Origin: Alphaproteobacteria bacterium | GTDB taxonomy: Bacteria; Pseudomonadota; Alphaproteobacteria; JAAEOK01 | Length of the DNA: 64,000 bases | Assembly: GCA_024244705.1 (NCBI GenBank) | Contig: JAAEOK010000032.1 | Location: 1-64,000, forward strand | Reading direction: 5' to 3' | Shown: positions 28,703-30,958 of the stretch, one piece after another | How the letters are laid out: every line of letters begins with the position of its first letter | Numbering within the stretch: the stretch's first letter is position 1 | Made by a program: the position numbers and the translations under genes | The notes under the pieces: generated by a model | What the model was told of the DNA's origin: nothing | The model's database searches: none | What the model saw: the letters and a program-made list of their open reading frames with translations, nothing else

Positions 28703-28718
28703 TTTACGTTTACGTAAA
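28703..28718 (+). promoter_or_regulatory. Candidate LiuR-type operator upstream of merR
   Basis: The stretch TTTACGTTTACGTAAA contains the 10-bp palindrome TTTACGTAAA at 28709–28718. The same core lies at the centre of the 44-bp palindrome after the regulator gene. It ends 42 bp before the regulator start, a good place for autoregulation. No clear -35/-10 pair can be set with confidence. Confidence 0.6.
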
Positions 28719-28760
28719 GGGCAAATACAGTGCCGTCCGTCGACGCAAGATCAAGACGCC

Positions 28761-29147
28761 ATGACAGAGACCTTCTCCATCACCGATCTGGCCAAAGAGT
28801 TCGATATTACGACTCGGACGATTCGATTCTACGAGGACGAGGGTTTGTTGGCCCCCGAACGGCGGGGCCAGGCCCGGGTTTACAAGGCGCGTGACCGCGT
28901 CCGATTGAAGCTTATTCTGCGCGGCAAGCGCCTCGGGTTCTCGCTGAAAGAGATCGCCGAGATCATCGATTTGTACGATTCCGAGCCGGGGGAGGTCGGT
29001 CAGCTTCGCCACTTCCTGGAAAAGATTGCCGAGCGACGCGCAGTGTTGATGCGGCAGCGCGAGGATATCGATGTGATCTTGACCGAACTCGACGCCGTGG
29101 AGGCGCAATGTATGGCGCGCCTCGTGACCAAGGGCGGCGCGACTTAG
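28761..29147 (+). CDS. MerR-family regulator, LiuR-like
   Basis: A 128-aa MerR-family activator/repressor. The winged helix-turn-helix is at about 5–70 (FSITDLAKEFDITTRTIRFYE, then AEIIDLY), followed by a coiled coil and a short C-terminus MARLVTKGG without a metal-binding cysteine cluster. LiuR proteins of this type control leucine/isovalerate genes in proteobacteria, and IVD, MCC and HMG-CoA lyase follow here. The effector is not shown by sequence. Operator-like palindromes sit on both sides. Confidence 0.85.
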   Translation: MTETFSITDLAKEFDITTRTIRFYEDEGLLAPERRGQARVYKARDRVRLKLILRGKRLGFSLKEIAEIIDLYDSEPGEVGQLRHFLEKIAERRAVLMRQREDIDVILTELDAVEAQCMARLVTKGGAT

Positions 29148-29158
29148 GGCCAATTCTT

Positions 29159-29202
29159 ACCCAATTTACTTGACGTTTACGTAAACGTCAAGTAAATTGG
29201 GT
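29159..29202. promoter_or_regulatory. 44-bp perfect palindrome with bidirectional promoter-like core
   Basis: Bases 29159–29180 are the exact reverse complement of 29181–29202. The left arm includes CAATTTACTTGACGTTTAC. On each strand the element reads TTGACG, a 17-bp spacer, TAAATT (plus strand: 29170–29175 and 29193–29198). The spacer is centred on TTTACGTAAA, as at the site before merR. It lies 11 bp after the regulator stop and 50 bp before the thioesterase. MerR regulators bind spacer palindromes, so this is the probable operator/promoter of the isovalerate operon. Confidence 0.8.
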
Positions 29203-29252: not shown

Positions 29253-29720
29253 ATGAGCAAAACCACTACATTTCAAACGCGTAACCCGGACTTTGCGGAA
29301 CGGGTCCGCGACAGTTTTGGCCGCCAGGGCTTCATGGGCTTTTTGGGAGCCGAGATGACTCGGGTAGAGCCTGGATTCGTTGAAATCCGACTGGAATTCC
29401 GCGATCAGTTGGGGCAGCAGCACGGTTTTTTCCACGGTGGAGTGACTGGAACGCTTGCCGACAATGCGGCGGGCTATGCGGCATTTACATTATTTGACGC
29501 CGACTCGAGTCCATTGACCGTGGAGTACAAACTGAGCCTGTTGGCGCCGGCCCGGGGCACGAGCATGATCGCTCGCGGCCAGGTGATCAAACCGGGCTCC
29601 CGGTTGAGCGTTGTCCGTTCCGATGTTTTTGCGCTCGGCGACGGGAATGAGACGCAGTGCGGAGCCGCCCTGGTCACGATCATGCGCATGGCCGGTATGT
29701 CGGACCAGCGCGTCGCCTGA
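29253..29720 (+). CDS. PaaI-family acyl-CoA thioesterase (hotdog fold)
   Basis: A 155-aa single-domain hotdog thioesterase, probably hydrolysing an acyl-CoA. The family core [26 protein letters not shown] has the HGG turn and the catalytic acidic residue (Asp of LADN). It is the first gene after the 44-bp palindrome and may relieve accumulation of branched acyl-CoAs. The substrate cannot be read. Confidence 0.88.
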
Positions 29721-29785
29721 TATTCTTCGCAAATTCGGTAGTGTCGCATTACGCTGTTTTCGCGCGCCGGCTAAAGGACGATTCA

Positions 29786-30958
29786 ATGATTCCCAACCAG
29801 TTGCCATCCCTGAACTTTGATCTCGGCGAAATCGCGGACATGCTTCGCGACACGGTGATGAGCTTTACCGCCGACGAGATCGCACCGCTCGCCGGGGAGA
29901 TCGACTCGAGCAACGAGTTCCCGATGCATCTCTGGCGCAAAATGGGCGATCTCGGAATTCTCGGGATCACCGTGGAGGAAGAGTATGGCGGTGCCGGTAT
30001 GGGCTATCTGGAGCATTGCGTGGCGATGGAAGAGGTCAGCCGCGGCTCGGCCTCGGTGGGTCTCAGTTACGGCGCACACTCCAACCTTTGCGTCAATCAG
30101 ATCCGCCGAAACGGAGATGCCGAACAGAAACAGCGCTATCTTCCGAAGCTGGTATCGGGCGAGCACGTTGGTGCGCTGGCGATGAGCGAACCCGGCGCGG
30201 GTTCCGATGTCGTCGGGATGCGCACCCGCGCGGACAAGATCGGCGACCGATGGGTCCTGAACGGCAGCAAGATGTGGATCACGAACGGCCCGGATGCGGA
30301 TACGATGGTCATTTATGCCAAGACCGACCCGGATGCGGGCCCCCGGGGAATAACCGCGTTCTTGGTCGAAAAGGGGTTCAAAGGATTTTCCACGGCGCAG
30401 AAACTCGACAAACTCGGCATGCGCGGATCGAACACCGGTGAGCTGGTTTTCGAGGATTGCGAGGTGCCGGAGGAAAACGTGCTCGGCGAGGTCAATAAGG
30501 GCGTTCACGTTCTGATGAGCGGTCTCGATTATGAGCGCACCGTCCTTGCCGCGGGACCGCTCGGCATCATGCAAGCCTGCATGGATGTGGTGGTCCCGTA
30601 TCTCCACGAACGCCAGCAATTCGGCCGGCCCATCGGCACCTTTCAGCTTATGCAAGGAAAGATCGCCGATATGTACACGACGATGAATGCGGCGAAGGCT
30701 TACGTCTATGCCGTCGCGAGAGCCTGCGACCGTGGCGAGACAACCCGAAAGGATGCCGCCGGGGCGATCCTGTTCGCGGCGGAAAAGGCGACCTGGATGG
30801 CGCTCGAGGCCATCCAGAGCCTGGGCGGAAATGGCTATATCAACGATTATCCGACCGGCCGACTATTGCGCGATGCGAAGCTTTACGAAATCGGCGCCGG
30901 GACCAGCGAGGTCCGCCGCATGTTGATCGGCCGCGAATTGTTTGAGGAGACGGCGTAA
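29786..30958 (+). CDS. ivd: Isovaleryl-CoA dehydrogenase
   Basis: IVD (390 aa) oxidises isovaleryl-CoA to 3-methylcrotonyl-CoA with FAD, passing electrons to ETF. Glu250 in [15 protein letters not shown] is at the position of the IVD catalytic base (not near the C-terminus as in other acyl-CoA dehydrogenases). [35 protein letters not shown] and [30 protein letters not shown]-type segments match. AAAGGA precedes ATG 29786. The stop overlaps the cupin start by one base. Confidence 0.95.

Follow-up and report, generated by a model that had tools for sequence, protein, structure and literature searches.

A 44-bp perfect palindrome at a predicted LiuR-type operator-promoter ahead of a thioesterase–isovaleryl-CoA dehydrogenase operon

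LiuR, of the MerR family, is described as repressing the use of branched-chain amino acids in proteobacteria (PMC3223726, PMC5343134). Bidirectional promoters of the type reported by Warman and Grainger have one common -10 element, and their transcription starts are typically 10, 18 or 23 bp apart (PMC12825309). In E. coli, template switching at imperfect inverted repeats makes these more perfect (PMC7202029), and it has been inferred that template switching is able to create perfect stems in a single event (PMC8794818).

The DNA analysed here (the window) is a stretch of 64,000 nucleotides from an alphaproteobacterium. As judged from the sequence, its positions 29159-29202 are a LiuR-type operator which overlaps the promoter of a thioesterase–isovaleryl-CoA dehydrogenase (Ivd) operon. 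The locus resembles the LiuR regulon (PMC3223726, PMC5343134; for liuR of P. aeruginosa see PMC8871633) in that a short MerR-family protein adjoins ivd/liu-type genes. It also shares the repressor logic and the presence of palindromic operators with ACGT, both ahead of ivd operons and ahead of the regulator gene. The features discussed below are collected in Table 1.

Table 1. Features of the palindrome and of its surroundings (positions in the window).
Feature	Position	Strand	Details
Second LiuR-type dyad, upstream of merR	28703-28718	.	TTTACGTTTACGTAAA; TACAGT at 17 bp
MerR-family regulator, LiuR-like, 128 aa	28761-29147	+	PF13411 4.8e-18, PF09278 2.7e-15
Whole element, 44-bp perfect palindrome	29159-29202	.	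ACCCAATTTACTTGACGTTTACGTAAACGTCAAGTAAATTGGGT
Left outer arm	29159-29169	.	ACCCAATTTAC; exact inverted copy of right arm; lineage-specific
-10 hexamer TAAATT, sequence-predicted leftward promoter antisense to merR	29163-29168	-	-35 at 29191-29186; not kept in relatives
Conserved LiuR-type double-operator core, 22 bp	29170-29191	.	TTGACGTTTACGTAAACGTCAA
Left 16-bp dyad TTGACGT-TT-ACGTAAA	29170-29185	.	pattern TTKACGTWWACGTMAA, 0 mismatches
-35 hexamer TTGACG, predicted rightward thioesterase-ivd promoter	29170-29175	+	core position common to relatives
Right 16-bp dyad TTTACGT-AA-ACGTCAA	29176-29191	.	axis 6 bp from that of the left dyad
Right outer arm	29192-29202	.	GTAAATTGGGT; contains rightward -10
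-10 hexamer TAAATT, predicted rightward promoter	29193-29198	+	17-bp spacer; TAnnnT here in most syntenic relatives
Hotdog-fold thioesterase, first gene of the controlled operon	29253-29720	+	PF03061, TIGR00369
Isovaleryl-CoA dehydrogenase (Ivd)	29780-30958	+	phmmer: 4kto 7e-207, human 1ivh 2e-164; also 4o5m

The palindrome, its promoters and its regulator

The palindrome lies between the stop codon of the MerR-family gene and the thioesterase start. It is real and far beyond chance. A sequence-only reading of the window had described it as symmetrical at every one of its 22 pairs, and a check of the sequence found all 22 to be exact, the element being identical to its own reverse complement. 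The runner-up among the perfect palindromes of the window has 18 bp, and about 8e-9 perfect palindromes of at least 44 bp are expected per window from base composition. The 11 extra matched pairs outside the 22-bp core correspond to p ~2e-7 at local composition. Beyond ±22 the symmetry breaks off sharply, with 4 of 18 pairs matching, which is about chance level.

The same reading had placed TTTACGTAAA at the centre. This is indeed the middle of the element, but the unit common to relatives is the surrounding 22-bp core. Taken as an operator core in its own right, TTTACGTAAA was rejected: its four genomic copies are the two LiuR sites of the window, a site at C112:54550 and one copy on an apparent plastid contig. 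Contig C103 of the window's assembly (G000; loci L003 and L126) codes for look-alikes of FtsH, an elongation-factor-Ts-like protein, AtpI, ribosomal protein S5 and SecY, and it is AT-rich with a plastid-type gene order. From a reading of its translations, it is probably algal plastid DNA binned into this assembly.

The claim that TTGACG-17-TAAATT can be read on both strands holds, at 29170-29198 and at 29191-29163. On each strand the -10 box sits just outside the 22-bp core, and the -35 hexamer and most of the 17-bp spacer lie within it. The left dyad is inside the spacer of the leftward promoter and over the -35 of the rightward one; the right dyad occupies the spacer of the rightward promoter and lies over the -35 of its mirror image. 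Since each dyad thus falls in one spacer and over the -35 of the other promoter, one bound dimer should block both. This geometry fits the earlier proposal that the MerR product binds in the spacer and switches both promoters at once; the protein is the likely regulator, and its binding here is predicted. The leftward promoter, antisense to merR, is likewise a prediction and may fire. Any leftward transcript from the palindrome would traverse a 147-codon open frame antisense to merR (28710-29153, - strand), which simple coding scores take for a gene.

MerR-type activated promoters have a spacer of 19-20 bp with the operator inside. The 17-bp spacer found here argues for plain repression and not for activation of this type.

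Downstream of the palindrome the gene order is thioesterase-ivd-cupin-thiolase, with Ivd as the third feature. That the element is an operator/promoter ahead of an isovalerate operon, as had been proposed, is borne out by the phmmer matches of Ivd to 4kto and 1ivh. The MerR protein scores under all NCBIfam metal/redox equivalog cut-offs, and its nearest solved structures are CueR and MerR, with weak scores. Its relatives (55-71% identical) are found in Alpha-, Beta- and Gammaproteobacteria, many of them beside ivd. An Ivd of at least 60% identity is present in 34 of the 109 loci of these relatives, for which short flanks were considered; among them are Idiomarina, Pseudoalteromonas and Vibrio.

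We call the product of 28761-29147 LiuR-like from its context and motif. It is a short protein with a MerR-type N-terminal winged HTH, and it is linked to ivd/liu genes in the window and in relatives. A common palindromic operator occurs at its presumed targets and at its own gene, the three strong sites of this genome being 28703, 29170/29176 and C112:54550. The last of these separates thioesterase and enoyl-CoA hydratase genes that are read divergently. The site at 28703-28718, which is overlapped by a weaker dyad (28709-28724, 2 mismatches), is probably the autoregulation site of merR.

Conserved core and variable arms in relatives

Sites of the TTKACGTWWACGTMAA type were found near merR or ivd in nearly all relatives. 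In most of these, a pair of such dyads shares 10 bp, the axes lying 6 bp apart, which results in the 22-bp core TTGACGTTTACGTAAACGTCAA. Of 385 genomes of the class, 32 contain this core with at most one mismatch, as do 35 of 398 genomes drawn from the phylum; a reversed control pattern of the 22-mer gave no match in either set. By sequence comparison, the predicted operator core is conserved across Alpha-, Beta- and Gammaproteobacteria beside ivd-linked merR genes. In Photobacterium and Vibrio (L077, L082, L103, L108) paired operators 29 bp apart precede merR-ivd, an arrangement which is absent among the Alphaproteobacteria examined.

The side on which the -10 box lies was analysed by scoring TAnnnT at a distance of 17 bp from the -35, to the left and to the right, in 38 one-way sites, including the two of the window. 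Neighbouring genes were assigned via cross-locus protein similarity. Codon-position gene calling, in part also cross-locus BLAST, called the antisense frame of merR. Some site contexts were corrected by hand beforehand, so the following counts carry manual judgement: TAnnnT was found towards the target at 47% of the sites vs 8% away from it, with 16 vs 1 discordant sites (p = 0.0003). The 8% are three sites, of which the window is one. Shuffled flanks gave ~2% towards and ~1% away. The one-sided -10 boxes of the relatives thus indicate that the LiuR core, which offers -35 and spacer to either strand, is direction-neutral, and that the -10 outside it decides in which direction it is read.

Outside the core the picture is different. 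Seven relatives of similar gene order (merR, operator, thioesterase and/or ivd) match at 9-10 of 11 core pairs but at 2-5 of 11 arm pairs. The sequence-only reading had treated the long symmetry as a kept, designed feature, and this does not agree with the seven syntenic relatives, which hold the 22-bp core and drop the outer symmetry. It had also named in advance an alignment in which relatives keep the central core and lose the outer arms as an outcome that would speak against it. The arms are indeed lost, but the kept core is 22 bp long and not 10. A function as a symmetric promoter is disfavoured by this pattern.

Long arms are not unique to the window. Among 88 flank-deduplicated operators, seven have at least five extra matched pairs, where 0.23 are expected from re-paired flanks, and five have at least seven (0.0 expected). 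Leaving out the window does not remove the excess: six operators remain, a number reached in 0 of 20,000 permutations. The long-arm operators match over 5-11 bases, and their arm sequences vary by lineage (ACCCAATTTAC; AAGCTACC; ACGGTAG; GCGATAC; TCACTAC). Perfect outer arms are lineage-specific, as far as sequences tell, and are found in a small, clearly non-random share of LiuR-type operators. Over the 88 operators their distribution is all-or-none, which favours copying of a flank over gradual selection.

Genus g175 has an operator ahead of an SDR gene whose orthologues carry perfect 8-bp arms in four species, while five sister species and the outgroups lack these arms. On the left, which is the side facing away from the SDR gene, TATAGGGT-GCG was swapped in place for GGTAGCTT-GCG (read outward), and the replaced patch of eight bases has conserved bases on either side. 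In the operator of the SDR gene at L212-L215, the core centre TTTACGTAAA is changed to CTTACGTAAG (or CTTACGTTAG) in sister species, the changes being matched across the axis. Relatives in the L011 family carry the core without the arms of L011. For the L194 arm, no DNA match was obtained in 60 genomes of the family.

How the outer arms may have arisen

We consider it likely, though by no means assured, that the element is a LiuR-type operator-promoter repressed via its core, that its arms are a recent addition by quasipalindrome template switching, and that the leftward promoter is a by-product. In detail, we infer binding, repression, the ligand, the mutational mechanism, the template arm and the leftward transcript as follows. 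A dimer of the MerR/LiuR-like protein on either dyad would cover a -35 hexamer and a spacer and so repress transcription; an isovaleryl- or branched-chain acyl-CoA signal would lift this repression. As the 17-bp spacer is already optimal, the protein would repress transcription and would not activate it by twisting the spacer in the manner of MerR. The ancestral site would have had a -10 box on its right side only, next to a direction-neutral core. Being quasi-palindromic, this core would allow the nascent strand to fold back, so that one flank is copied onto the other. Such copying would have duplicated the -10 side in inverted orientation, with a leftward promoter as the outcome.

The right arm is the likelier template because it bears the -10 required by the operon; the left arm, beyond the stop codon of merR, would then be the copy. 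In genus g175 the template arm is not certain, since both arms changed there. We infer the ancestral state of the window site from other orders, compared with which the window site is more symmetrical; the nearest compared genome is of the same class. The sister-operator case in g175 is a comparison within one genus, in which the sites with arms exceed their relatives in symmetry and differ from them by a multi-base change equal to an inverted copy of the opposite arm. A repeat or mobile element that brought the arm was considered and rejected: ACCCAATTTACTTGACG was found only as the two arms, all other matches having three mismatches.

Alternatively, the symmetry might have been selected as a two-way promoter, with LiuR switching thioesterase-ivd together with an antisense RNA that runs leftward over merR and tunes repressor synthesis. 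The identical TTGACG-17-TAAATT on both strands and the interlocking of the dyads with both promoters would be explained in this way, and E. coli commonly has bidirectional promoters with pseudo-symmetrical sequences (PMC12825309). Some of the long-arm relatives (L132/L133, L011, L194) are located between divergent genes, where two-way use makes sense, but the one-way cases (the window, L006 and L009) do not fit. That long arms are commoner between divergent genes is not shown: roughly one half of the long-arm sites have such a context, but this also holds for many other sites. In g175 the left side faces a gene, so that the arms there could stem from selection for a two-way promoter. In the window, however, the arms continue past the -10 (GGGT/ACCC), more than a second promoter requires, and a leftward promoter that fires strongly would disturb both the transcription of merR and the rightward promoter, with which it overlaps. 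Relatives with one target do without a second -10, and syntenic relatives do without the arms. We thus regard this explanation as doubtful.

It is quite unlikely that the arms serve at the RNA level, as a 20-bp hairpin which ends, processes or protects the merR mRNA on read-through from the merR promoter. The stem is stable (-29 kcal/mol, z = -9.2), and terminators downstream of liuR have been reported in Pseudomonas aeruginosa (PMC8871633). However, similar-order relatives lack the extended stem, and several long-arm relatives are located between divergent genes, where no transcript crosses. For the element itself no Rfam match was obtained. With intrinsic terminators the window shares the long stable stem but not the T-run, which is absent from both strands at the site; the search for terminators found 0. 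A G+C-rich stem followed by a T-run is present in L006, where the extended operator is followed by eight T. This locus has the same mgtE-merR-thioesterase-ivd order as the window, and its 36-bp perfect palindromic LiuR operator (with the T-run, L006 1200-1243) resembles a terminator of the upstream gene and an operator of the next in one.

Very unlikely, in our view, is a role of the arms as extra LiuR contacts, with outer degenerate half-sites (TTTACT/AGTAAA) at which further dimers would bind cooperatively. By eye the arm prolongs the 6-bp rhythm of the half-sites (TTTACT TGACGT TTACGT), and in the strongest class of operators the symmetry is slightly raised at ±11 to ±15 (0.31-0.52). Over 54 core operators, however, it is at background beyond ±15, and the arms of the other long-arm relatives do not look like half-sites. 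Finally, an artefact of assembly or amplification is extremely improbable even though the assembly is fragmented and has some contamination, including the apparent plastid contig: the inverted repeat is short and stops abruptly on both sides inside unique sequence, it is at the functionally expected place, and comparable long arms occur in independent genomes.

Returning to template switching, a broader claim can be formulated: that LiuR operators are a natural hot spot of this process, which time and again rewrites one promoter flank as the inverted copy of its counterpart and so turns one-way into symmetrical two-way promoters in one step, and that the antisense promoter directed against the repressor gene is functional here. 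We think this improbable. If flank copying as such is right, mutation at operator palindromes could make a promoter of opposite direction in one step, which would offer a testable way for new antisense or divergent transcription to arise. As a caution, long perfect symmetry of an operator need not imply function over its whole length.

Comparison with described systems

Quasipalindrome template-switch mutations (PMC7202029; PMC8794818) turn an imperfect inverted repeat into a more perfect one, as would have happened here. The exact inverted-copy arm with its sharp end is a further likeness, as is the lineage-specific and recurrent occurrence. The difference is that the case described here is an evolutionary footprint only, and that it is located at a transcription-factor operator.

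Bidirectional promoters (Warman, Grainger; PMC12825309), which include the SoxR-controlled PsoxS/soxR, are also built on pseudo-symmetrical DNA where polymerase may proceed in either direction. At PsoxS/soxR a MerR-family protein is bound within such promoter DNA, and the corresponding binding is predicted for the window; the SoxR promoter has a spacer of 19 bp vs 17 bp here. Divergent starts around or within one -10 are the hallmark of the Warman type, whereas the boxes at 29163-29168 and 29193-29198 are separate. In the window it is the -35/spacer region that is shared, the two -10 boxes face outward, and the predicted starts are ~49 bp apart.

In contrast to the LiuR regulon, the operator of the window is stretched to a 44-bp perfect palindrome, and its core consists of two dyads which overlap by 10 bp. 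The genes following it are thioesterase, ivd, cupin and thiolase instead of the full liuABCDE set.
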